From: Patescibacteria group bacterium
Lineage (GTDB): Bacteria; Patescibacteriota; Patescibacteriia; Patescibacteriales; GWC2-42-12
Assembly (NCBI GenBank): GCA_028703305.1
Contig: JAQVNC010000006.1
Span: 1-45,859 of the forward strand
Direction: 5' to 3'
Length of the DNA: 45,859 bases
Part shown: positions 1,455 through 38,394 of the stretch, piece by piece
How positions within the stretch are numbered: position 1 is the stretch's first letter
How the letters are laid out: each line of letters opens with the position of its first letter
The notes under the pieces: model-generated
What the model was told of the DNA's origin: nothing
The model's database searches: none
Seen by the model: the letters and a program-made list of their open reading frames with translations, nothing else
Made by a program: the position numbers and the translations under genes

Positions 1455-4322
1455 ATGCAAAATAGCATCCGAATCAAAGGCGCGCGCGTCCATAATTTAA
1501 AAAATGTCAGCCTGGAAATTCCGCGCGATAAACTGGTGGTTTTAACCGGCCTGTCCGGCTCGGGCAAATCCTCTTTGGCTTTTGATACAATTTACGCCGA
1601 AGGCCAGCGCCGCTATGTTGAATCTTTATCCGCTTACGCCCGCCAATTCATCGGCCAGATGAATAAGCCTGATGTTGATTCCATTGACGGCTTGTCGCCG
1701 GCTATTTCCATTGATCAAAAATCCACTTCCCATAATCCGCGCTCAACCGTCGGCACGATTACGGAAATTTACGACTACTTGCGCCTGTTATACGCCCGCG
1801 TCGGCGTGCCTCATTGTCCGACCTGCGGCGAAAAAATCAAACCCATGTCAATTGATGAAATCGTCGGCCAGATTATTGCCGGCTTTATGGATAAGGACAT
1901 AATAATTTTAGCTCCCCTGATTAAAGACAAAAAAGGAGAGCATAAAAGCATTTTAGACGGCGTGGCCAAGGCCGGCTACTCCCGCCTTAAATATGATGGG
2001 CATATTTACTCTTTGGAAGAAGTCCGCGATTTAAACGTGGACAAGCAGAAAAAACATAACGTGGAAATCGTGATTGACCGCTTATCCGTCAATAAAGATA
2101 AAGAGGATCTGGCGCGCCTGACCGAGAGCGTGGAAAAAGCCATTGAGCTGGGCAACGGTTTGGTAGCGGTCGGACCGCTTAAGAGCGGTCCGACCGCTAA
2201 AACCGTCTCCGAAACCACTTTTTCCAAACTTTCCGCCTGCTCTAAATGCGGCATCAGCTTACCCGAATTGGAGCCGCGCAATTTTTCCTTTAACTCGCCT
2301 CATGGCGCCTGCTCTGATTGCTCCGGCTTGGGCACTAAGCTGGAAATTGACCCGAATTTAATTATCAATTCCAATTTAACCATCGCCCAAGGCGCTATCC
2401 GCCCCTGGGCCCATAGCACGGCCGGCGGCCAAGGCTGGATGATGCGTATCCTAGGCACGGTAGCGCAGGCTCAAGGCTTTGATTTAAATACTCCGGTTAA
2501 AGATTTAACTAAAAAACAATTAGCTATCGTGCTTTATGGCTCGGGCGAAAAAAACTATAATGTTGATTATCAAAGCGACCGTTTTTCCGGTGAATTAACC
2601 ACTGAATTTGAGGGCGTTATCCCTAATCTGGAACGCCGCTTCCAGCAAACCGAATCCGATTATGTTAGGCGTGAAATTGAGCAATATATGAGGATCTTGG
2701 TTTGCCCGACATGCTTAGGCAAGCGCTTAAAGCCGGAGATGCTGGCCGTAACTATCGCCGGCTTGTCAATTTATGATGTCTCGGAAAAAACCATTGGCCA
2801 GGAAAAAAAATTCTTTGGCGATCTGGCCGATTCAAAAACAATTTCCGCGCGCGACAAAAAAATTTCAACCCAGCTTTTAAAAGAAATTTGCGCCCGCCTG
2901 GAATTTCTTTCTAACGTCGGCCTGGATTACTTAACGCTCGGGCGCGCGGCCAATACCTTGTCCGGCGGCGAAGCCCAGCGCATACGTTTAGCTACCCAGA
3001 TTGGCTCGGCTTTAATGGGCGTAATTTATATTTTAGACGAGCCGTCAATCGGCCTGCACCAACGCGACAACAATAAATTGATCGGCACGCTTAAAAAATT
3101 GCGCGATTTAGGCAATACGGTTTTAGTGGTTGAACATGACGAGGCCATGATGCTGGCGGCCGATTGGCTGATAGATATCGGCCCGGGCGCGGGCGAGCAT
3201 GGCGGCCAAATCGTGGCCGAAGGAGCGCCGCTGGCTGTAAAGAAAAATCAAAAATCTTTAACTGGCCAATATTTAAGTGGCAAAAAATTCATACCCGCGC
3301 CGGCTAAATACCGCGCCGATAGTGGAAAAAGTTTAAAAATTATAAAAGCCGGCGAGCATAATTTAAAAAATATTGATGTGGAATTTCCTTTAGGCATGTT
3401 TATCGCCATTACCGGCGTTTCCGGCTCGGGCAAATCCACCTTAATGACCGATATTTTAGCCAATGCCTTAAACCAAAAGCTTTACCGCGCCAAGCAAGCG
3501 CCGGGCAAGCATGAAAAAATTCAAGGCCTGGAAAATATTGATAAAGTAATCAATATTGACCAGTCGCCGATCGGCCGCACCCCGCGGTCAAATCCGGCGA
3601 CTTACACCGGCGCCTTTACGCCGATTCGCGATTTATTCGCAAGCTTGCCTGAAGCTAAGATCAGAGGCTATAAAACCGGGCGCTTTTCTTTTAACGTCCC
3701 GGGTGGGCGCTGCGAAGCTTGCGGCGGCGACGGTATGGTTAAAATAGAAATGCAATTTTTGCCTGACATCTATGTTGAGTGCGAAGTCTGCCACGGCAAA
3801 AGATATAATAAAGAAGCTTTGGAAATTCATTATAAAGACAAAAATATTTCCGATGTATTAAATATGACAGTTGAAGAAGGCCTGCACTTTTTCAGAAACA
3901 TTCCGGCGATTGAGCAAAAACTTTTTACTTTAAATCAGGTCGGTTTAAGTTATGTTAAGCTCGGCCAATCAGCCACAACCCTGTCCGGCGGCGAAGCGCA
4001 AAGGGTAAAATTAGCCACCGAACTGTCCCGCCGCGCCACGGGAAAAACTTTATACATTTTAGACGAACCCACCACCGGTTTGCACTTTGACGACATCAAA
4101 AAACTTTTGCATGTCTTAAATCAGCTGGTTGATAAAGGCAATACGGTTTTAATTATTGAGCATAATTTAGACGTGATCAAATCAGTTGATTGGATCATAG
4201 ATCTCGGCCCGGAAGGCGGCGACAAAGGCGGCGAAATCGTGGCAATTGGCACGCCGCGCCAAGTCGCCAACAACAAAAAAAGTTACACTGGTCAATACCT
4301 CGCAAAAATCTTCAAAAAATAA
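1455..4322 (+). CDS. uvrA: Excinuclease ABC subunit A
   Basis: UvrA is the damage-recognition ATPase of nucleotide excision repair. The 955-residue protein has two ABC modules. The first has Walker [10 protein letters not shown] near residue 31 and the signature LSGGEAQR with [13 protein letters not shown]. The second has [10 protein letters not shown], then [12 protein letters not shown] and [13 protein letters not shown]. Zinc modules are intact: CSKC with CSDC, and CEAC with CEVC around the C-terminal DNA-binding region. I chose the ATG at 1455 over the upstream GTG at 1401 because the extra 18 codons are encoded by a family E repeat, and [13 protein letters not shown] matches the usual N-terminus. 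No Shine-Dalgarno sequence is seen. A perfect 15-bp inverted repeat lies inside the gene at 2165-2198. uvrB and uvrC lie about 13 kb away. Confidence 0.97.
2165..2198. repeat. Perfect 15-bp palindrome inside uvrA
   Basis: AGCGGTCGGACCGCT (2165-2179), a 4-base loop TAAG, and AGCGGTCCGACCGCT (2184-2198) are perfect inverted repeats. They encode the peptide [11 protein letters not shown] just before the first zinc module of UvrA. By eye against remembered E. coli UvrA, the stretch here is a few residues longer. An inserted repeat is plausible but unproven. Confidence 0.75.
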
Positions 4323-4380: not shown

Positions 4381-5736
4381 TTAAAATAATTTCTTATAAA
4401 ACAATAAAAAATATATTAGCGGCATTGTCTTAATGCCGTTTTTATTTTCCAGCCTGTCTTTACTTATAATAATGCCTTTTTTAAATCCGGCTAATTTAAA
4501 AATATTAAAATCCGCTTGGCTGATTTCTTTATCATACCTGATTAAAATCGGCGCTACGCCTTTCCCTCGCTTAACCAAAAAATTAATTTCTTTTTTCTTA
4601 ATATTGTCGCGCCAATAAGTTATTTTATTGGCCTCATCTTTGGCCAAATGGCTAAAAACCACATTCTCCACTAGATGAAAAAATACCGCCGGATCATGCA
4701 AACGCTGGCGCGCCAGCTGATAATAGTTTAGCGAACCGTGAGTATATGAATAGAACAGCCAAAAAATAAACGGATCCTGAAAATAAACTTTTTTGGCTTT
4801 ACGGCTGTCCGGTTCGCCCCCGTCTGACTGGTAGACGGTTTTTATAACGAACATTGATTCCAAAATATCTAAATATTCAACCGCGGTTAGATGAGTCTTG
4901 GCTTTGGTTTTATGGGTTAAAGTTTTATAGCCCAAAGGCGTGCCTAAATTTAAAATCAATTTTTCCATAATCTGCCTGGTTAAAACTATATCCCGATTAG
5001 ACCTGGCGACATGGGCTAAAAACCAATGCAGGAAATTACTGTAAATATTCTGCCTGATGGCGCCGTTTTCTTTGTAATCGTTGATGGCGGAAATAAAGCC
5101 GCCGGTTAAAAGATAAATGTCCAAATAATATTCAAGCCGGCCATGCCGCTTCTGATAATTTTCCCGGGTTAAATCTTTAAAAAGATCGGGATTAATTAAA
5201 TTGGCAAATTCGCTAAAAGCCAAACTATTAATGGTTATATTTTTTACATCATTGAATTTAGCTTTGGCTTGGCTAAAAGACGAAGCCGATAGAATAACCG
5301 TGGCATTAATCAGTTTGGCGGCTTTAGATAAATGATCCATGCCCTTTTGCCAATTTTTTATCATGGCGATCTCGTCAATAAAAATATAGCGCCGCGCCTT
5401 GCCCTCGGCTTTTAAACTTAAAAACAGCTTAATCATTTCATTAAGCTGCTCAAAGCTATCAAGATTGTGGCAAGAATAAAAAAAGATATTATTAGGATTA
5501 ACCCGATCTGCTTCAATTAATTTTTTAATCATGAGCTTCAGTAAAGTGGTTTTACCCGCGCCCTTTAAGCCGGTTAAAAAATATATTTTATCCTGTTTTA
5601 AATTTATTTGTTCTAAAGCCGCCGGCTGCCGCTTTAAGCTTTGCCGTTCATATTGTTCAATTGACGGATCAAATTTTAAACTTTCGCCCCTCCACCAGGG
5701 ATTTTGAATGGAAAGCAGCTCTAAATTTAAATCCAT
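4381..5736 (-). CDS. AAA ATPase with C-terminal DUF4143-like domain
   Basis: The P-loop FLTGLKGAGKTTLLKLM lies near residue 55-70 and the Walker B region RYIFIDEIAMIKNW near 140. A sensor-like segment ILSASSF follows. The C-terminal half has YLTGG, the LTHKTKAKTHLTAVEYLDIL winged-helix-like stretch, YFQDPFIFWLF and a nuclease-like NFLVKRG. This order matches the AAA_14 plus DUF4143 family, whose biochemical role is unknown. The frame is open to a TTG at 5751, but I prefer the ATG at 5736 (451 residues). It lies directly downstream of the DedA-like gene on the same strand with about 17 bases between them. No partner gene suggests a substrate. Confidence 0.8.
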   Translation of the reverse strand: MDLNLELLSIQNPWWRGESLKFDPSIEQYERQSLKRQPAALEQINLKQDKIYFLTGLKGAGKTTLLKLMIKKLIEADRVNPNNIFFYSCHNLDSFEQLNEMIKLFLSLKAEGKARRYIFIDEIAMIKNWQKGMDHLSKAAKLINATVILSASSFSQAKAKFNDVKNITINSLAFSEFANLINPDLFKDLTRENYQKRHGRLEYYLDIYLLTGGFISAINDYKENGAIRQNIYSNFLHWFLAHVARSNRDIVLTRQIMEKLILNLGTPLGYKTLTHKTKAKTHLTAVEYLDILESMFVIKTVYQSDGGEPDSRKAKKVYFQDPFIFWLFYSYTHGSLNYYQLARQRLHDPAVFFHLVENVVFSHLAKDEANKITYWRDNIKKKEINFLVKRGKGVAPILIRYDKEISQADFNIFKLAGFKKGIIISKDRLENKNGIKTMPLIYFLLFYKKLF

Positions 5737-5753: not shown

Positions 5754-6374
5754 TTAATCATTTTTTAAATTTTTTAAATGCCTTCTAACATACCAAATCG
5801 CGCCAATTATAATTATTGCCACGATAGCCGCGTCAAACTTATGGAAATAAGCTCCGAGCGTATTCCAATGGTCGCCCAATTTTTTACCAATATAAGCTAA
5901 AACGTAGCACCAGGGCAAAGAGCCTAAAAAAGTATAAATCACAAACTTGGTAAAATTCATTTTAGCGATGCCGGCCGGCAAAGAAATAAAAGTTCTTACC
6001 ACCGGTAAGAGGCGCGATAAGAAAATCGCGCCGGAGCCGTATTTATTAAAAAAATTATCGGCCATGGCTAAATCATGATGAGAAATTAAAACATACTTGC
6101 CGTATTTTTCTATAAAAGATCGCCCGCCCCAAACGCCTACGGCATAAGCCGCGGCCGAACCGGCGACACAGCCTAAAGCGCCGGCTAAAGTTACGCCGAG
6201 CAAACTGAATTTCCCTTGCGCCGCTAAAAAACCGGCGAACGGCATGATAATTTCGGACGGCAACGGCACGCAGGCGCTTTCAATCGCCATCATTAAACCA
6301 ACGCCCGCGTAGCCTAATGAGGAGATAGCGTTGATAATAAACGAGGTCAAAACTGAAATAATAGATTCTAACAT
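5754..6374 (-). CDS. DedA/VTT-family integral membrane protein
   Basis: The 206-residue protein has several hydrophobic segments and the family landmarks. These include ESACVPLPSEIIMPFAGFLA (the conserved E and P of the re-entrant loop), AYAVGVWGG, the FLSRLLPVVRTFISLPAG motif with its conserved arginines, and GSLPWCYVLAYIGKKLG. DedA proteins are VTT-domain membrane proteins. Some family members help flip undecaprenyl phosphate or other lipids and maintain membrane potential; which lipid this one handles cannot be told from sequence. The length is normal for the family. It follows argS by about 10 bases on the same strand and precedes the DUF4143 ATPase, so the three may be cotranscribed. Confidence 0.92.
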   Translation of the reverse strand: MLESIISVLTSFIINAISSLGYAGVGLMMAIESACVPLPSEIIMPFAGFLAAQGKFSLLGVTLAGALGCVAGSAAAYAVGVWGGRSFIEKYGKYVLISHHDLAMADNFFNKYGSGAIFLSRLLPVVRTFISLPAGIAKMNFTKFVIYTFLGSLPWCYVLAYIGKKLGDHWNTLGAYFHKFDAAIVAIIIIGAIWYVRRHLKNLKND

Positions 6375-10489: not shown

Positions 10490-13156
10490 TTATTTACTCT
10501 TTAAACTTTTTAATTCCGCCTGCCAGCCTTTTAGTTTCTCTTTCTCTTTTTTTATAATTTCGGCTGGCGCCTTATCAATAAATTCCTTATTCGCCAGCCT
10601 GCTTTCCGCCGCCTTGATTATTTTTTCCAAATTACTAATTTCTTTTTCCAGTCTGGCTTTTTCTTTTTCCGCGTCAACCGCTCCCAATAAATATATTTCA
10701 ATATCGCCAACTGCCGCATAAATGGCTCCTGATATTTTTTCACCGCTGACTTTTATTTTCAGCTCACTGATTCCCGTGCGCAAACCCTTTATCAAATGCA
10801 CTTGCGAATCAATTAAATCTTTTTGTTTGCCGGCATAAATAACAGCCTTTATTTTTTTCGCCGGCTCAACTTTATTTCCACTCCTGGCATTTCGTATAGC
10901 GATAATTATATCTTTAATTAAATCGAATTCAACTGATACTTTAAAATTAAAATCACTGCCTTTCCGGTCCGGCCATTTTTCCACCATCAATAAACCTTTA
11001 TTGCCCATTTCTTGCCAAATAGTTTCGGTTACGAATGGTATAAAGGGGTGCCAAAGTTTTAGCAACTCGCTTAAAATATAAATTAATATTTCTTCTTTCT
11101 CTTTATTATCTTCAAATTTACTTATTTCCAAATACCAATCAGCCAAGTCGTTCCAAGTAAAAATTCTAAGTTCTTCTCCCGCCTGAGAGAATTGATAATT
11201 TTCTAAACAATTAATTGAAGTTTCATATATTAGCCAACTTATTTTTGATAGTATCCATTTATCCGCCAAGGTTATTTTTTTCGCGTTTAATTGAAAATTG
11301 GTTATTGGTAATTGGTTATTGCCGATTATAAATCGGCTAATATTCCACAACTTATTTACCATATTCCTGGCGCCTTCAACTTTCTCTTCGTAAAATTTGG
11401 AGTCGTTGCCCGGAGCGATGCCGGAAATTAAGCTTAAGCGCAAAGCGTCCGTGCCGAATTTAGCCGCCACTTCAAGCGGGTTCAAATTATTGCCTGACGA
11501 TTTGGAAAATTTCTTGCCCATTTCATTTCTTAGCATGCCATGGATATAAACGTCCTTAAACGGAATCTGATCCAAGGCATAAGTTGACATTAAAATCATC
11601 CTGGCCATCCAAAAAAATAAAATTTCATAGCCCATCTGCATCCAACTCGTCGGATGAAAAGTTTTTAAATCACTTGTTTTTACGGGCTTGTCCGCCGTAG
11701 CCTTGGCGGAGGCGGGCCAGCCTAAGGTGCTAAATGTCCAGAGCCCTGACGAAAACCAAGTATCCAAAGTATCTTCGTCTTGCTTCCAACCATCGCCTGG
11801 CTCTTTCTCTCCCACATAAATTTCTTCTTTTTTATACCAAACCGGAATCCTGTGCCCCCACCAAATCTGCCGCGAGATGCACCAGTCGCGCAGATTATCT
11901 ATCCAATTTAAATATACTTTGGCAAATCTGTCCGGCGTAATTTTTACTTTTTGTTTATCGTCTCCATTATGCCCGATTGTCACCGCCTCGCGCATTAAAT
12001 CTTTTAAACTTTTATCTTTATTAGGAATTTTTTTATTAACATCAATAAACCACTGCGTCATTGGCAAAACCTCTACCGCGTCGCCAAAGCGGTCGGAGGT
12101 GCCGACGTTTTGCGTAATATCTTCTTCTTTTTCCAGTAATTTTTCTTTATTAAGCCAATCAATAAATTTCTCCCGCGCTTCTAAAACCGTTAAGCCGGCG
12201 TATTCTTTCCCGGCCGCTTCCGTCATTTTGCCATTTTGGCCAATCACCTGAACTAAGCCTATATTATCGCCTTTAGCTTTTTGCTTTTCAAACATTTCAA
12301 AATCAACCATGCTGTGAGCCGGCGTCACGCCAACCGCGCCGGTGCCGAATTCCATCTCAACATTTTCGTCGGCAATAATCTTTATTTCAAGAGGCTTAGC
12401 CGCGCCGACTTCAACTTTAAAAACCTGGCCGATATATTTTTTATAGCGCTTATCTTTGGAGTTTACGGCTACGGCCGTATCACCGAGCTTTGTTTCCGGC
12501 CTGGTTGTAGCTACGGCAATGGGAAAATCTTTAGCGTATTTAAAAGTATAAAGTTTGGCCGGACGTTCAACGTGCACCAGCTCATCGTCCGAGCAGGTGG
12601 ACTGGCCTTTAACCGACCAATTAACCACCCGGTTGCCCCGATAGATCAATCCGTCATTATACATTTTTATAAACACTTCATTAACCGCTCGCCCGCGCGC
12701 TTCATCAAAAGTATAAGCCAGACGCGACCAATCGCAGGATGTGCCCATTTTTCTAATTTGTTTTAAAATTGTGGATTTGGAATCCTCGGCATACTCCCGA
12801 ATTTTTTCTAGCAGCTTCTCTCTGCCTAATTCTTGGCGTGGATTTTTCATACCTTGCTCCACTAAAACTTTTTCCACTTTAGCCTGCGTGGCCACGGCCG
12901 CGTGATCAGTTCCGGGCAAAAGCAAAACCTTTTTGCCGTTCATCCGCTGGTAGCGCGCCATAATATCCATTAAAGAATTTTCCAAAGCATGGCCTAGATG
13001 AAGCACGCCGGTAACGTTCGGCGGCGGCATCATAATGGAATATGGATCGCCTTTGAGATTATCGGGATTAAAAAAGCCTGATTTCTCCCATTGGGCGTAA
13101 ATCGCGTCTTCATAATCTGCCGGATTATATGCTTTTGGCAATTCTTTCTTCAACAT
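10490..13156 (-). CDS. valS: Valyl-tRNA synthetase
   Basis: The 888-residue class I enzyme has HIGH motif PPPNVTGVLHLGHALENS near residue 45 and KMSKS motif NEMGKKFSKSSGNNLNP. Its editing domain has VATTRPETKLGDTAVAV, and it has the WCISRQIWWGHRIPVWY segment. An anticodon-binding domain follows, then the ValRS-specific C-terminal coiled coil (EKEKARLEKEISNLEKIIKA). An extra peptide, PASAKATADKP, interrupts the conserved stretch between TLGW and the FHPTSWMQ segment and is encoded by a family G repeat (11684-11718). A second low-complexity peptide (NNQLPITNFQLN) maps to a repeated ATTGGTTATTGG-type stretch near 11300. The enzyme is expected to remain functional because both insertions lie outside catalytic motifs. 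Confidence 0.96.
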   Translation of the reverse strand: MLKKELPKAYNPADYEDAIYAQWEKSGFFNPDNLKGDPYSIMMPPPNVTGVLHLGHALENSLMDIMARYQRMNGKKVLLLPGTDHAAVATQAKVEKVLVEQGMKNPRQELGREKLLEKIREYAEDSKSTILKQIRKMGTSCDWSRLAYTFDEARGRAVNEVFIKMYNDGLIYRGNRVVNWSVKGQSTCSDDELVHVERPAKLYTFKYAKDFPIAVATTRPETKLGDTAVAVNSKDKRYKKYIGQVFKVEVGAAKPLEIKIIADENVEMEFGTGAVGVTPAHSMVDFEMFEKQKAKGDNIGLVQVIGQNGKMTEAAGKEYAGLTVLEAREKFIDWLNKEKLLEKEEDITQNVGTSDRFGDAVEVLPMTQWFIDVNKKIPNKDKSLKDLMREAVTIGHNGDDKQKVKITPDRFAKVYLNWIDNLRDWCISRQIWWGHRIPVWYKKEEIYVGEKEPGDGWKQDEDTLDTWFSSGLWTFSTLGWPASAKATADKPVKTSDLKTFHPTSWMQMGYEILFFWMARMILMSTYALDQIPFKDVYIHGMLRNEMGKKFSKSSGNNLNPLEVAAKFGTDALRLSLISGIAPGNDSKFYEEKVEGARNMVNKLWNISRFIIGNNQLPITNFQLNAKKITLADKWILSKISWLIYETSINCLENYQFSQAGEELRIFTWNDLADWYLEISKFEDNKEKEEILIYILSELLKLWHPFIPFVTETIWQEMGNKGLLMVEKWPDRKGSDFNFKVSVEFDLIKDIIIAIRNARSGNKVEPAKKIKAVIYAGKQKDLIDSQVHLIKGLRTGISELKIKVSGEKISGAIYAAVGDIEIYLLGAVDAEKEKARLEKEISNLEKIIKAAESRLANKEFIDKAPAEIIKKEKEKLKGWQAELKSLKSK
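11684..11718. repeat. Family G palindrome inserted in frame in valS
   Basis: GGGCTTGTCCGCC followed by GTAGCCTTGGCGGAGGCGGG has CCGCC/GGCGG arms. It encodes PASAKATADKP on the minus strand, absent from the ValRS consensus that I remember at this position. Relatives lie at 4333, 20153 and 28019. Confidence 0.8.
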
Positions 13157-17692: not shown

Positions 17693-17724
17693 AAAACTGC
17701 TTCTATATTTAGAAACAGTTTTTT
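17693..17724. terminator. Bidirectional terminator between VanW and the candidate RNA
   Basis: AAAACTGCTTC, loop TATATTTA, GAAACAGTTTT, with A and T runs on both sides. It can stop the VanW transcript on the plus strand and the candidate minus-strand RNA. Confidence 0.8.
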
Positions 17725-17885
17725 AAAAGCCCAACTTAAGCGGGCAGGCAAGAAAATTTCCGCTAGGTGAAATCCAGTAGAAACCACATCGCACCTTGCA
17801 AGAAGATCCCCATGCTTGTCGTGCCTGGCCCGCTTAAATCGGCCTTATACCCATCTTTAAAGAGAAAGAGTATTAATTAGGTTGA
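17725..17885 (-). ncRNA. Candidate structured small RNA upstream of uvrB
   Basis: A long hairpin has arms TTAAGCGGGCAGGCA (17736-17750) and TGCCTGGCCCGCTTAA (17822-17837) with one bulged base. The 71-base interior can form further short stems, for example AGGTG with CACCT. On the minus strand it is preceded by a promoter (TTGACA at 17920-17915, TAGGCT at 17897-17892) and ends in a bidirectional terminator, giving a predicted RNA of about 190 bases. I looked for signal recognition particle, 6S and RNase P signatures and found none. It could instead be a hairpin repeat like families A-D. The remainder of 17838-17983 is the promoter region. Confidence 0.4.
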
Positions 17886-33427: not shown

Positions 33428-35812
33428 ATGTCCGAAAATAAATTTATTAAATTTTTTGAAGAAACCACTATTAAAGACGTGCCTGAAGTCGGCGGCAAAA
33501 ACGCCTCGCTCGGCGAAATGTATAAAAATTTGGCCGGCCAGGGCATAAAAGTGCCTAATGGCTTTGCCACCACGGCTAACGCCTATAATTATCTTTTAGA
33601 GCAGACCCAGCTTAAAGAAAATATTAAAAAAATCCTGGACGGCTTAAATACCAGAAACGTAACCGATTTGGCTAAACGCGGCGCGGCCGTTAGAAAATTA
33701 ATTATCGCCACGGATTTTCCCAAAGACTTAAGCCAAGCCATTACTCAAGCTTATAAAAAATTATCCCAATTCTATAAAACTAAAAATCTGCATGTGGCGG
33801 TTCGTTCTTCGGCCACGGCCGAAGATTTGCCGGACGCCTCGTTCGCCGGCCAGCAAGAAACTTATTTAAATATTTCCGGCGAAGTTGAACTGCTCCTCGC
33901 GGTAAAAAAATGCCTGGCTTCGCTTTTCACCAACCGCGCTATTTCTTACCGCGTGGATAAAGGCTTTGACCATTTTAAAATTGCCCTATCGGTCGGCGTA
34001 CAAAAAATGATTAGATCTGATTTAGCGGCCTCGGGCGTTACTTTTACGATTGACACTGAATCAGGCTTTAATAATGTTGTCCTGGTCAGTTCAATTTTCG
34101 GCTTAGGCGAAAATATCGTGCAAGGCAAAGTTGACCCTGATGAATTTTATGTTTTTAAGCCCACTAAAACCATTATTTCCCATTCAATCTCCACTAAAAA
34201 AATCAAGATGATTTATAGCGCTGATCTGAAACATCCGGTCAAAGACATTAAAGTGCCGCTAGCCGAGCAGCGCCAACAATCAATTACCGATGCCCAAGTT
34301 TTAAAGCTGGCTGACTGGGCCATGCAAATTGAAAAGCATTATGGCCGTGCCATGGATATAGAATGGGCCTTGGACGGCCAAGAAAACGAATTATACATTA
34401 TCCAGGCGCGTCCGGAAACTATTCATAGCGTGCGCGATTACAGCGTAATTGAAGAATATGTCTTGGAAAAAAAGAGCCGCGTCATCTCTACCGGCCGCAG
34501 CGTCGGCAACCGCATCGGCGCCGGCATAGCCAACCGGATTATGGATATTGTTGATATTGCAAAATTCAAGCCGGGCGAAGTCTTAGTGACTGACATGACC
34601 GACCCGGACTGGGAGCCGATTATGAAGATCGCCTCGGCTATTGTGACGGATAAAGGCGGGCGCACCTGCCACGCGGCTATTGTCAGCCGCGAGCTGGGCA
34701 TTCCTTGTATCGTGGGTACCGGCGACGTATCGCGCAAAGTAAAAACCGGGCAGGCCGTAACCATTAGCTGTGCCGAAGGCGATGCCGGCTTTATTTATGA
34801 AGGCAAACTGCCATTTAAAATAAATAAAACCAGCATTAAAAATTTAGCCAGGCCGAAAACTAAAATCATGATGAATATCGGCTCGCCTGATATCGCCTTT
34901 CTGTCGTCTTTCATCCCTAACGACGGCGTGGGCTTGGCGCGCGAAGAATTTATTATTAACGACCATATAAAAATTCATCCTTTGGCTTTGATAAATTACC
35001 CTAAATTAAAAGATAAAAAAGCCAAAAAGAAAATTGATGAATTAACCGCCGGCTATAAAGACAAAAAACAATATTATATTGATAAACTGGCCGAAGGCAT
35101 AGCCATAATCGCGGCCGCCTTTTACCCCAAAGACGTGATTATCAGATTTTCCGATTTTAAAACCAATGAATACGCTAATCTGATCGGCGGCGCCGAGTTT
35201 GAACCGATTGAAGGCAACCCGATGATTGGCTGGCGAGGCGCTTCCCGCTATTACACGCCCTTATTTAAGCCGGCCTTCGAACTTGAATGCGCGGCCATAA
35301 AAAAAGTGCGTGATAAAATGAAACTGACCAATTTAAAAGCCATGGTGCCGTTCTGCCGCACCATAAAAGAAGCCGAGCAGGTTATAAAAATCATCGCCGA
35401 CAACGGGCTAAAGCAAGGCGTTAATAATTTTGAATTATATTGCATGGTGGAAATTCCCTCTAACGTTATTTTGGCCGATGAATTCGCCGAGCTTTATGAT
35501 GGCTTTTCCATCGGTTCCAATGATTTAACACAGCTTACGCTCGGCGTTGACCGAGACAGCTCGCTGGTTAGCCAAGTTTATGACGAAAATAACGCGGCCG
35601 TAAAAAAATTGATTAAGCAAGTTATTGAAGTCTCTAAAAAAACCAAGACTAAAATCGGCATCTGCGGCCAGGCGCCGTCCGACTTTCCCGAGTTCGCCCA
35701 GTTTTTAGTGGAATGCGGCATAGACAGCATTTCCTTAAATCCGGACACGGTTATAAAAACCACCATGGCCATATTGGAAACCGAGAAAAAAATTAAATCT
35801 CGCAACTCATAA
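33428..35812 (+). CDS. ppsA: Phosphoenolpyruvate synthase
   Basis: The 794-residue enzyme interconverts pyruvate plus ATP with PEP, AMP and phosphate. The N-terminal ATP-grasp domain has VGGKNASLGEM, VRSSATAEDLPDASFAGQQE and EFYVFKPTK. The central phosphohistidine domain has GGRTCHAAIVSRELGIPCIV, whose His accepts phosphate. The C-terminal TIM barrel has VGLAREEFI, VIIRFSDFKTNEY, MVEIPSNVILADEF, IGSNDLTQLTLGVDRD and CGQAPSD with the catalytic cysteine. Length and motif order are normal. In a sugar-fermenting candidate-phyla cell it could run either way. Element B2 lies directly upstream, and a family E repeat and a terminator follow. Confidence 0.96.
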   Translation: MSENKFIKFFEETTIKDVPEVGGKNASLGEMYKNLAGQGIKVPNGFATTANAYNYLLEQTQLKENIKKILDGLNTRNVTDLAKRGAAVRKLIIATDFPKDLSQAITQAYKKLSQFYKTKNLHVAVRSSATAEDLPDASFAGQQETYLNISGEVELLLAVKKCLASLFTNRAISYRVDKGFDHFKIALSVGVQKMIRSDLAASGVTFTIDTESGFNNVVLVSSIFGLGENIVQGKVDPDEFYVFKPTKTIISHSISTKKIKMIYSADLKHPVKDIKVPLAEQRQQSITDAQVLKLADWAMQIEKHYGRAMDIEWALDGQENELYIIQARPETIHSVRDYSVIEEYVLEKKSRVISTGRSVGNRIGAGIANRIMDIVDIAKFKPGEVLVTDMTDPDWEPIMKIASAIVTDKGGRTCHAAIVSRELGIPCIVGTGDVSRKVKTGQAVTISCAEGDAGFIYEGKLPFKINKTSIKNLARPKTKIMMNIGSPDIAFLSSFIPNDGVGLAREEFIINDHIKIHPLALINYPKLKDKKAKKKIDELTAGYKDKKQYYIDKLAEGIAIIAAAFYPKDVIIRFSDFKTNEYANLIGGAEFEPIEGNPMIGWRGASRYYTPLFKPAFELECAAIKKVRDKMKLTNLKAMVPFCRTIKEAEQVIKIIADNGLKQGVNNFELYCMVEIPSNVILADEFAELYDGFSIGSNDLTQLTLGVDRDSSLVSQVYDENNAAVKKLIKQVIEVSKKTKTKIGICGQAPSDFPEFAQFLVECGIDSISLNPDTVIKTTMAILETEKKIKSRNS

Positions 35813-35818
35813 TAAATT

Positions 35819-35860
35819 GTCATTGCGAGCGAGCCCGTACTCGGGCGACGAAGCAATCTC
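35819..35860. repeat. Family E repeat after ppsA
   Basis: GTCATTGCGAGCGAGCCCGT followed by ACTCGGGCGACGAAGCAATC contains the hairpin GCCCG-TACT-CGGGC. Compare the CCCGC/GCGGG hairpin in the copy at 28678: same position, different paired bases. Confidence 0.85.
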
Positions 35861-35879
35861 ATTTTTCTTCCATAAAAAT

Positions 35880-35910
35880 AAAGGCGGTTATTATAACCGT
35901 CTTTATTTTA
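35880..35910 (+). terminator. Terminator after ppsA
   Basis: AAAGGCGGTTA, then TAACCGTCTTT with one G-T pair, followed by ATTTTA. Confidence 0.65.
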
Positions 35911-35941
35911 CTTAATATTAGCATAATTATACTAATATCTA

Positions 35942-35970
35942 TTGACAAAAAAAAGAAAGTGTGATATAGT
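35942..35970 (+). promoter_or_regulatory. Promoter of the small-gene cassette
   Basis: TTGACA (35942-35947), a 17-base spacer and TATAGT (35965-35970). Transcription from here would include a leader of about 155 bases containing the large hairpin at 36000-36090. Confidence 0.8.
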
Positions 35971-35999
35971 TTAAAAATAATTTTGGTCTTTAAAACCAT

Positions 36000-36090
36000 T
36001 TAATTACCCCGAAATTGCTGTTATTTTTATTCGTCATTCCTGCGTAAGCAGGAATCCAGAAATTAACGCCGGCAGTTTCGGGGTAATTAA
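36000..36090 (+). promoter_or_regulatory. Leader hairpin carrying a family F repeat in its loop
   Basis: Arms of 21 bases (36000-36020 and 36070-36090, cores TTACCCCGAAA and TTTCGGGGTAA) pair with only two G-U positions. A family F repeat (36033-36062, GTCATTCCTGCGTAAGCAGG) sits in the loop. A T-rich stretch follows, so this could act as an attenuator before the strong ribosome site at about 36113-36125. No known riboswitch motif is recognised. Confidence 0.6.
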
Positions 36091-36131
36091 AGTTTTTCTA
36101 ATTTTTTTCTAAAGGAGGAGGAGGAGAAATA

Positions 36132-36353
36132 ATGAGAAATAAGTTAGCGACATGGGGCGCGGCAGTCGGTTGCCTGTTGGCGATCGCAATCATAATATTA
36201 ATTAACTTGAATGCCGACGTTAAGATAGTACTGACGTTGGCGATGATATTGGTTGCCGGCATTGTCATCTTCATGGCAACCTGCCTTATGGATTATTTGG
36301 CCGAGTTGTCTTTCAAAAAAAATCGGCCGAGCAAAAGCCTTAGGAAGGCTTAA
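36132..36353 (+). CDS. Small two-segment membrane protein, cassette gene 1
   Basis: The 73-residue protein has two membrane segments (about residues 8-26, GAAVGCLLAIAIIILINL, and 31-52, IVLTLAMILVAGIVIFMATC). A basic tail follows (KKNRPSKSLRKA), which puts both termini in the cytoplasm. No family is recognised. The start follows an extended Shine-Dalgarno sequence, AAAGGAGGAGGAGGAG, the strongest in the window. Codon choice (CTG, GTC, GCG) differs from neighbouring housekeeping genes. It is headed by a consensus-like promoter and a hairpin leader, and followed by a hairpin terminator at 36410. These marks suggest a highly expressed gene of different origin. Confidence 0.75.
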   Translation: MRNKLATWGAAVGCLLAIAIIILINLNADVKIVLTLAMILVAGIVIFMATCLMDYLAELSFKKNRPSKSLRKA

Positions 36354-36409
36354 AATTCCGAACTCATCGGTTGAGCTAGCTTCGCTGGCAAAACCGTAAA
36401 TATATAAAA

Positions 36410-36450
36410 GGAGCCGAGGCATTAACTTGCTCTCGGCTCTACTTCTTTTA
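36410..36450 (+). terminator. Hairpin between cassette genes 1 and 2
   Basis: GAGCCGAG (36411-36418) pairs with CTCGGCTC (36432-36439), followed by the T-rich TACTTCTTTTA. It may terminate partially, since no new promoter is obvious before gene 2. Confidence 0.6.
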
Positions 36451-36472
36451 ACCTTATTTTAAGGGGGTGGCA

Positions 36473-36670
36473 ATGAAAAAAATATTAGGAGCAATAGGAT
36501 TGCTCCTGCTCTGCGTCGGAATTATTGGCTTCATCTATTTAGCTAAAATCGACGGAGCCGAACCGGAACTATCATGGGGATTGGGCATGGGTCCACTTCT
36601 GATCGGCTTGATGCTGCTATTGGCATCATCGCAAAGGAAGGAGGACAGTAATGCAAATTCGCTGCCCTAA
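36473..36670 (+). CDS. Small two-segment membrane protein, cassette gene 2
   Basis: The 65-residue protein has two membrane segments (LGAIGLLLLCVGIIGFIYLA at about 4-23, and LLIGLMLLLASS near 43-54). They are joined by an acidic loop, and the tail is polar. The ATG at 36473 is preferred over the GTG at 36467 because it follows AAGGGGGTGG at a suitable distance. Its last 20 bases overlap the next gene, so translation of the two is probably coupled. No family is recognised. Strong Shine-Dalgarno use and codon choice match cassette genes 1, 3 and 4, not the housekeeping genes. Confidence 0.7.
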   Translation: MKKILGAIGLLLLCVGIIGFIYLAKIDGAEPELSWGLGMGPLLIGLMLLLASSQRKEDSNANSLP

Positions 36671-36860
36671 CCCGGGTTGTCAGCAGCCTGTCACTCTACG
36701 AGAGTTGACAGAAACGGAAATGGGCGGTTGCGGACGAAATGTGGTATGCCCGATTTGCAACGGGTCTTTTCACATTCTGTTCAGCGGAAAGACAATCTTC
36801 TTCCCGCAGGCCACCGACCAATACGGCCGTCCGCGCGTTCTGCGGAGTGTGCCTCAATAA
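36651..36860 (+). CDS. Small zinc-ribbon protein, cassette gene 3
   Basis: The 69-residue protein begins MQIRCPNPGCQQPVTLRELT. It has one cysteine pair C-x4-C (5 and 10) and another C-x2-C in VVCPICNGSFHI, with an extra cysteine in GGCGRN. Four cysteines in this spacing suggest a zinc ribbon. The remainder (FPQATDQYGRPRVLRSVPQ) is short and basic. No catalytic motif is seen. The start overlaps gene 2 by 20 bases and has a perfect AGGAGG seven bases upstream. A strong terminator follows. DNA, RNA or protein binding are all possible; none is shown. Confidence 0.72.
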   Translation: MQIRCPNPGCQQPVTLRELTETEMGGCGRNVVCPICNGSFHILFSGKTIFFPQATDQYGRPRVLRSVPQ

Positions 36861-36865
36861 AAACC

Positions 36866-36906
36866 GCCGAGGATAGCTTTTAAAGCATCCTCGGCTTTTC
36901 TTTTTT
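36866..36906 (+). terminator. Strong terminator after cassette gene 3
   Basis: GCCGAGGAT (36866-36874) pairs with ATCCTCGGC (36887-36895), and the palindrome GCTTTTAAAGC extends the stem. TTTTCTTTTTT follows. Confidence 0.88.
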
Positions 36907-36979
36907 AAAATTTGACTAAAAGCAATAAGCAAGGCAAAATGAAATTAATAGATCATTGAATGCGTGAAAGGAGAAAGCC

Positions 36980-37243
36980 ATGTCATCACCTTGGTTTATT
37001 GTTTCAATTTCCTCGGTATGTATATCCTTAAGCATCGGGCTAATCTCAAGCTTTTTCTTTTATCAATACGGGACAGTAGAATACTGGTGGGCAGTTGCCA
37101 AAATTACCTTAATATCGGCTTTTCTGGCTTTCTGCGCTATTGATATTCTATCTGCCTGCGGACATTTAAAGCCCGCACAGATGCTCAAAAAGCCCAGAGC
37201 AAGATTATCATACAAAAGAGGGCTCACACTGCTGGTTGAATAA
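36980..37243 (+). CDS. Small two-segment membrane protein, cassette gene 4
   Basis: The 87-residue protein has two membrane segments: about 6-28 (FIVSISSVCISLSIGLIS) and 39-60 (AKITLISAFLAFCAIDIL). A basic tail follows (KKPRARLSYKRG). A Shine-Dalgarno AAAGGAG lies seven bases before the ATG. The terminator hairpin overlaps its stop codon. The topology is like cassette genes 1 and 2, but I see no clear sequence similarity among the three. No family is recognised. It may have its own promoter in 36907-36979, but none is convincing. The family D element D2 begins about 65 bases downstream. Confidence 0.7.
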   Translation: MSSPWFIVSISSVCISLSIGLISSFFFYQYGTVEYWWAVAKITLISAFLAFCAIDILSACGHLKPAQMLKKPRARLSYKRGLTLLVE

Positions 37244-37259
37244 CCAGCTTTTTTTATTT
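37231..37259 (+). terminator. Terminator overlapping the end of cassette gene 4
   Basis: GCTGGTT (37231-37237), loop GAAT, AACCAGC (37242-37248), then seven T. The stop codon lies in the right half of the hairpin. Confidence 0.85.
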
Positions 37260-37307
37260 GACTAAATTGCCTTAAAAAGAGAAAATGATTATAAGAATAT
37301 TTTAAAA

Positions 37308-37447: not shown

Positions 37448-37584
37448 AGAATGAAAAAATATAATTAAAAAGTAACGGTAAAATATTTAAATGTGTATTA
37501 GGCAAATATGTCAGACTGTTTTACATATTCCTACCGTTTCCTCCTGGATTGCGGCTCAAGGGCCGCAATGATAATCATAAATAT

Positions 37585-38394
37585 ATGTTTAACTTCCTTC
37601 ATACTTTTAATCCCTCGCCCATTCTCGCCGCTATCGGCCCAATCCATATTTATTGGTATGGCTTTTTTATAGTACTCGGAATTTTAGCGGCTATCGCCAT
37701 TGCGATTTATCTGGCTAAAATTTATGGCCTGGAAAGTGAAACGATTATTGACCTGTCTGTTTGGCTGATCGTTGGCGGGCTGATCGGCGCCCGGGCTTAT
37801 GACATATTTTTGGAATGGCCTTATTTTTCAACTCATCCATTAGACGTTTTTAAAGTCTGGCAAGGCGGCCTGGCTATTCATGGGGCGATCATCGGCGGCC
37901 TAATCGCCCTCTGGCTCTTCGCCAAAAAACATCACCATAATTTTTGGCAACTGGCCGGCATAGCGGCGACCACTTTGCCGCTAGCCCAAGCCATCGGCCG
38001 CTGGGGCAACTATTTTAATCAGGAACTATTCGGTTATCCGACCAACCTGCCCTGGGGCATACCAATAGATATGGCCCATCGCCCTTGGCAATATATGGAT
38101 TATAATTATTTCCACCCGGCGTTTTTATATGAAAGCTTGGGCTGCTTGCTGATTTTTATCATTCTTATATATCTTCAAAGAAAAGTCGCGAGCTATAAAT
38201 TACAGGTTGCCAGCTATTTATTCATGTATGGCGTTTTAAGATTCGCCATGGAATTTATCCGCCTTGACGCTACGCCGGTAATTTTCGGCCTGCGTTTTCC
38301 ACAAATAGTAAGCTTGCTTATTGTATTCTTGTCTTTAGGCTATTTTTGCTACATTATTTGGCTAAAAATCAGCAAAAAAACCGCTATTGAATAA
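37585..38394 (+). CDS. lgt: Prolipoprotein diacylglyceryl transferase
   Basis: Lgt transfers diacylglycerol from phosphatidylglycerol to the lipobox cysteine of prelipoproteins in the membrane. The protein has 269 residues from the ATG at 37585. A TTG at 37549 would add 12 codons made from a repeat (peptide RLKGRNDNHKY), so I reject it. About seven membrane segments are seen. Family landmarks include the GGLIGARAYD arginine, GGLAIHGAIIGG with its histidine, and the signature GRWGNYFNQELFG. HPAFLYESLGC and MYGVLRFAMEFIR follow. A short repeat-like peptide (KVASYKLQVASYLF) lies in a loop. The presence of Lgt implies lipoproteins in this organism. Confidence 0.95.
   Translation: MFNFLHTFNPSPILAAIGPIHIYWYGFFIVLGILAAIAIAIYLAKIYGLESETIIDLSVWLIVGGLIGARAYDIFLEWPYFSTHPLDVFKVWQGGLAIHGAIIGGLIALWLFAKKHHHNFWQLAGIAATTLPLAQAIGRWGNYFNQELFGYPTNLPWGIPIDMAHRPWQYMDYNYFHPAFLYESLGCLLIFIILIYLQRKVASYKLQVASYLFMYGVLRFAMEFIRLDATPVIFGLRFPQIVSLLIVFLSLGYFCYIIWLKISKKTAIE

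Follow-up and report, generated by a model that had tools for sequence, protein, structure and literature searches.

A probable lineage-restricted accessory island of four tiny genes between ppdK and lgt in a Patescibacteria genome

The window analysed here (45,859 bases) is the entire contig C8 of a Patescibacteria genome of 925 kb, assembled in 37 contigs and 98% complete (G000). It was compared with genomes of the same genus (G001, G002, and G003), with one of another genus of the same family (G010), and with genomes drawn from the same phylum, which span 0.6-1.7 Mb. Between two genes that we take, from reading their translations, to be ppdK (33428-35812, on the left) and lgt (37549-38394, on the right) lies a block of 1.4 kb with four tiny genes. 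All four are on the plus strand and start with ATG: ORF1 (36132-36353) encodes 73 aa, ORF2 (36473-36670) 65 aa, ORF3 (36651-36860) 69 aa, and ORF4 (36980-37243) 87 aa. This agrees with the preliminary description of the locus, which had reported four ORFs of 65-87 residues and a 20-base overlap between the second and the third; the overlap is present at 36651-36670. In addition, the Shine-Dalgarno (SD) site of ORF3 lies within ORF2. The overlap and the position of this site suggest that the translation of the two genes is coupled. The left edge of the block is the transcription terminator of ppdK (35875-35909, plus strand), located by a terminator scan and by alignment with G003, in which it also follows ppdK. 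The right edge is a segment upstream of lgt (37250-37288, plus strand), recognised by alignment, with an identity of 95% in G001 and 89% in G003.

Very strong ribosome sites and signals of high expression had been claimed for these genes. We found SD duplex energies of -11.8, -11.5, -12.3, and -9.0 for ORF1 to ORF4, respectively, which are far above the genome background. For instance, all four beat each of 68 spurious ORFs, the best 1% of which reach -6.7. Only 0-4.3% of the native genes attain the energies of the island, the median native gene has no SD site, and an energy of -9 is reached by 1.4% of all ATGs. It is very unlikely that four strong and properly spaced SD sites stand by chance before ATGs that open 65-87 codons. 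Meanwhile, the codon usage of the four ORFs is odd. A dicodon model trained on 136 native genes scores them about as low as the spurious ORFs. When the synonymous codon score was compared with 736 native chunks of 75 aa, ORFs 2-4 fell under more than 99.8% of the chunks and ORF1 under about 98%. Odd codon usage alone could mean either non-coding or foreign sequence, and the SD sites decide for foreign. Judged by these signals, the four ORFs are probably real genes.

The products of ORFs 1, 2, and 4 each have two hydrophobic segments, predicted to be membrane spans, and that of ORF3 has none, in line with the three two-span membrane proteins first proposed. The C-terminal tail is basic in ORF1 and strongly basic in ORF4, and the positive charge of both proteins is gathered there. 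AlphaFold2, run on the single sequence, models ORF1 as a helical hairpin (pLDDT 78), and a Foldseek search with this model gave no match. ORF3 is the cysteine-pair protein of the preliminary description and has five cysteines (CxxxxC, C, CxxC); its single-sequence model is unreliable (pLDDT 49.6). It resembles short zinc-ribbon proteins in its cysteine pairs and in weak profile alignments of nearly full length to Zn_ribbon_4 and Zn_ribbon_19. However, its first pair is CxxxxC and not CxxC, and the scores (12.4 and 15.5 bits) do not reach the curated gathering cut-offs (30.3 and 30.8). The ORF3 product is a putative zinc-binding protein. Its PDB hits to zinc fingers of TRAF6 (E 0.016) were rejected, since they reflect the cysteine spacing. 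One earlier reading joined these proteins in a membrane complex served by a cytoplasmic zinc adaptor, and we found nothing in its favour except the overlap of ORF2 and ORF3.

The block has a sigma70-type promoter (TTGACA-17-TATAGT; 35942-35970, plus strand) with an extended -10 (TGN before the -10). It matches 11 of the 12 consensus positions and bears out the earlier claim of a near-consensus promoter. Promoters with at least 11/12 matches and an extended -10 occur only nine times in 246 kb of this genome (the window plus 200 kb of other stretches, our background sample), both strands counted. A pattern search located the upstream promoter element TTAATATTAGCATAA at 35912-35926 (plus strand), which has seven matches in G000 with at most one mismatch and no control match. 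The possibility that elements of this type belong to rRNA promoters was rejected, as Rfam finds no rRNA at the matching loci. We also observed that the promoter of a DUF3800-IX RNA in G010 (G010:C8:11885-14899, positions 1373-1436) has the island's TTTACTTAATATTAGC upstream element.

The transcript would start with a hairpin leader (35999-36091, plus strand), found by folding and followed by a U-rich tract. The arms (about 35999-36020 and 36070-36091) form a stem of 22 pairs, where one of 21 bp had been described, around a loop of about 50 nt. The minimum free energy is -58.3 kcal/mol (z -7.85), and no shuffled sequence was equally stable. The U-rich tract 3' of the stem may plausibly make the leader an attenuator, a site of partial termination, or the terminator of a small RNA. 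Missed earlier, one copy of a dispersed repeat lies in the loop (36023-36062, plus strand), and this repeat has several further matches elsewhere in the genome. Thus, part of the hairpin's size comes from an unrelated repeat. A different dispersed palindromic repeat lies at the 3' end of ppdK (35813-35860), and similar copies of both repeats are present in relatives. The inverted repeat of the leader itself is unique in the 246 kb examined, and the idea that it is a mobile MITE was rejected for want of a second copy there. An Rfam search of the island gave nothing credible.

The stability of this fold, its U-rich tail, and the fact that an unlisted conserved RNA has similar promoters in both G000 and G003 would fit a locus that is mainly for RNA. 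The product of the promoter would then be a small hairpin RNA with its 3' end at the U-tract that follows 36091, and the downstream ORFs would be minor or spurious. However, the four ATG starts have SD energies past those of all spurious ORFs, the inverted repeat occurs once in the sample, and its loop is filled by the dispersed repeat. We regard this explanation as improbable.

Downstream of the leader, we found a hairpin with a weak U-tract after ORF1 (36410-36440), which is a possible leaky terminator, a strong intrinsic terminator after ORF3 (36866-36895), and a terminator overlapping the end of ORF4 (37231-37248). ORF4 is also preceded by a weak promoter-like site (9/12; 36912-36940) that resembles the segment upstream of lgt. 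All these features are on the plus strand. Because the terminators follow ORF1 (weak), ORF3, and ORF4, the block would comprise two or three transcription units rather than one, with ORF4 apart. The stacked terminators and the single, tightly controlled cassette of the preliminary description do not hold: the terminators are spread over these three places, the strong one separates ORF4, and the leader hairpin holds a generic repeat.

The statement that the proteins match no known family stands, as profile searches against Pfam, PHROGs, NCBIfam, and PADLOC gave no match above the cut-offs for any island protein. Matches to GABA permease, IBR, and DUF3487 were set aside as chance hydrophobic or cysteine matches. 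ORFs 1 and 3 are absent from 40 relatives, three of the same genus included, and none of the four ORFs has a credible match among 380 genomes sampled from the phylum. The phylum-wide matches of ORF3 and ORF4 (E about 0.0001-0.01) were rejected, since they run mostly through stop codons or short hydrophobic stretches. Furthermore, no island homologue was found among viral contigs or in the GTDB collection by pattern-seeded scans, which detect close relatives only and, for GTDB, used no pattern from ORF2. Phage and plasmid records likewise gave no homologue, the plasmids being tested with ORFs 3 and 4 only, and we found nothing on the block in the literature on small or orphan CPR proteins.

Toxin-like or phage-defence proteins had been suggested as another reading, and PADLOC, PHROGs, and the phage searches returned nothing for it. 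A related explanation is that these are membrane-active killing genes with a regulatory leader, similar to either type I toxins or class II holins. Class II holins have two spans, both ends inside, and a charged tail. The island's membrane proteins are like them in size, in the basic tails of ORFs 1 and 4, and in a topology of two spans with both ends inside, predicted here from hydropathy and charge only, and a structured leader covers the start region. However, no endolysin or antitoxin gene was recognised alongside the island, and PHROGs, PADLOC, Pfam, and NCBIfam gave no match. In the region we saw only weak minus-strand promoter-like sites and identified no promoter for an antisense RNA. 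Moreover, three different proteins of this kind in one block, together with a zinc protein, would be unusual for either system. Killing genes thus seem a poor prospect, and we give them little weight.

The junction between ppdK and lgt differs among relatives. In G002 and G010, which lack the island, the gap is at most a few tens of bases long, and G011 and G012 carry other inserts there. Thus, the junction is a variable site. The preliminary description had asked for conservation of gene order in related genomes. The neighbours ppdK and lgt are kept in G002 and G010 without the block, of which the searches found no second copy. In G003, a rearrangement has placed another gene, that of a conserved RNA, behind the ppdK terminator. 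We noted that in this genome (G003:C27, about 11700-12000) ppdK lies directly 5' of the conserved RNA and is convergent to a vanW-like gene; this arrangement would fit an inversion with respect to the window. A promoter in common with G003 was considered as a sign of common descent of the island and rejected, as the G003 promoter belongs to the conserved RNA and was moved beside ppdK by the rearrangement.

In G001, the sequence before the lgt upstream segment resembles the terminator region of ORF3 (36866-36895), and the contig ends there. Aligned over all 94 bases, this place scores 39, and the next-ranking unrelated place of the 246-kb sample reaches 32; the terminator part alone scores 31 against 32 and is not distinguished from chance. 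As a weak lead, a related island may once have been present in G001. At the island itself, we saw no integrase, attachment site, or flanking direct repeat, and the searches found no donor of its genes. Because there is no homologue, acquisition is inferred from the codon usage, the SD style, and the empty sites.

The style of these genes recurs in the genome, and the island is probably one of several. In a sample of 202 genes of at least 100 aa, a strong SD was found in 8 of 16 foreign-codon genes versus 9 of 186 others (Fisher p = 3.7e-6), with cut-offs chosen after seeing the ranked list. Across genes, the rank correlation of codon score and SD was not significant (rho 0.10, p 0.15), and only the tail of low codon scores is enriched. 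Ten proteins with foreign codons and a strong SD were searched; one has a clear DUF155 domain, two have marginal matches (to DHH and to alpha/beta hydrolase), and the rest had none. This class looks like scattered acquired genes and not a single mobile element. A second island (C37:123068-125638) has an exact copy of TTAATATTAGCATAA 5' of a strong promoter, a structured leader, a strong SD site, and three foreign-codon genes. One of its proteins has just two weak partial matches among 287 genomes of the phylum, and viral contigs searched with two other island proteins gave no match. Because of the SD strength and this recurrence, the ORFs are probably real despite having no homologues. Spurious ORFs had been expected to lack homologues anywhere; such a lack was indeed seen within the searches made, and the two observations just named argue against that explanation.

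Two further observations were made on contig C37. A 170-nt direct repeat, 98% identical (G000:C37:120001-140000, positions 3868-4037 and 5128-5297), flanks a nearly orphan gene of 343 aa in the second island, which looks like a repeat-gene-repeat arrangement. At G000:C37:100001-120000, positions 5760-6310, a strong promoter and a leader that looks T-box-like by eye precede a 57-aa cysteine-containing ORF with a strong SD and native codon usage.

The genes could instead be native orphans, born in the lineage or evolving fast, whose odd codons would mean youth and not foreign origin. No donor or homologue was found, the codon scores are near those of non-coding frames, a native non-coding RNA has a promoter of similar style, and the upstream element is shared within the genome, all of which suit this explanation. 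However, all four genes have an exceptionally strong SD when most genes have none, and this style is common to larger proteins of low codon score, one with the old DUF155 domain, which are not new genes. We therefore hold a native origin to be unlikely. On a more tentative note, the lineage may carry dispersed islands of species-restricted genes with a common promoter type, structured leaders, foreign codons, and strong SD sites where most genes have none. By the same reading, and equally speculatively, the membrane-protein block could be one member of a translationally privileged accessory pool, which the lineage would maintain by acquiring genes repeatedly from an element that has not been sampled.

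We propose that an accessory island restricted to this lineage was acquired between ppdK and lgt with its own promoter, leader, and terminators, similar to a phage moron, and we put the probability at roughly 0.6. It is probably real and undescribed, and more ordinary (orphan accessory genes) than the title of the preliminary description suggests. Transcription from 35942 would run past the leader hairpin, where part of it may terminate. The transcript would supply ORF1 and the coupled pair of ORF2 and ORF3, and ORF4 would be expressed from a promoter of its own. The products of ORFs 1, 2, and 4 would insert into the cytoplasmic membrane as two-helix hairpins with both ends inside, following the positive-inside rule, and ORF3, made with ORF2, would be a cytosolic zinc-binding protein. 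The small double-span proteins might then alter the cell envelope and, for example, stop phage entry.

Published morons are accessory loci that are often independently transcribed, and phage immunity is among the traits they affect (PMC7067206). The island is like them in being an extra block between genes that are adjacent elsewhere (ppdK and lgt in G002 and G010), in having its own promoter and terminator, here as sequence signals only, and in its distinct composition, seen here in the codon scores; morons are also often small membrane proteins. However, morons are borne by phages, whereas the island lies in the chromosome between housekeeping genes, with no phage gene nearby and no PHROGs or phage matches, and it has more than one gene and terminator. 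As no phage carrier is seen at the island, it lacks the trait that defines a moron.

Small superinfection-exclusion membrane proteins, such as T4 Imm, are small and basic with two membrane spans. The island proteins are like them in size, basic charge, and spans; however, there is no sequence match and no phage context here. Blocking of phage entry, or exclusion, would be the likeliest single role of the island, although an unlikely one in itself. If translated, the genes represent four protein families without known relatives in a genome under a megabase. In addition, a strong SD and foreign codons define a class recognisable by sequence alone, and where most genes lack an SD, this filter would point to acquired and probably highly translated accessory genes.

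Elsewhere in the window, we noticed a rod-like conserved RNA of about 125 nt (17722-17847, minus strand), which has its own promoter and lies between the vanW-like gene and uvrB. It has no Rfam match, and its DNA has matches in 49 of 61 relatives. The consensus structure has 46 pairs, 11 of them changed on both sides, and an invariant 5' bulge (CGACAAGCAUGGGG), and this RNA possibly represents an undescribed family.
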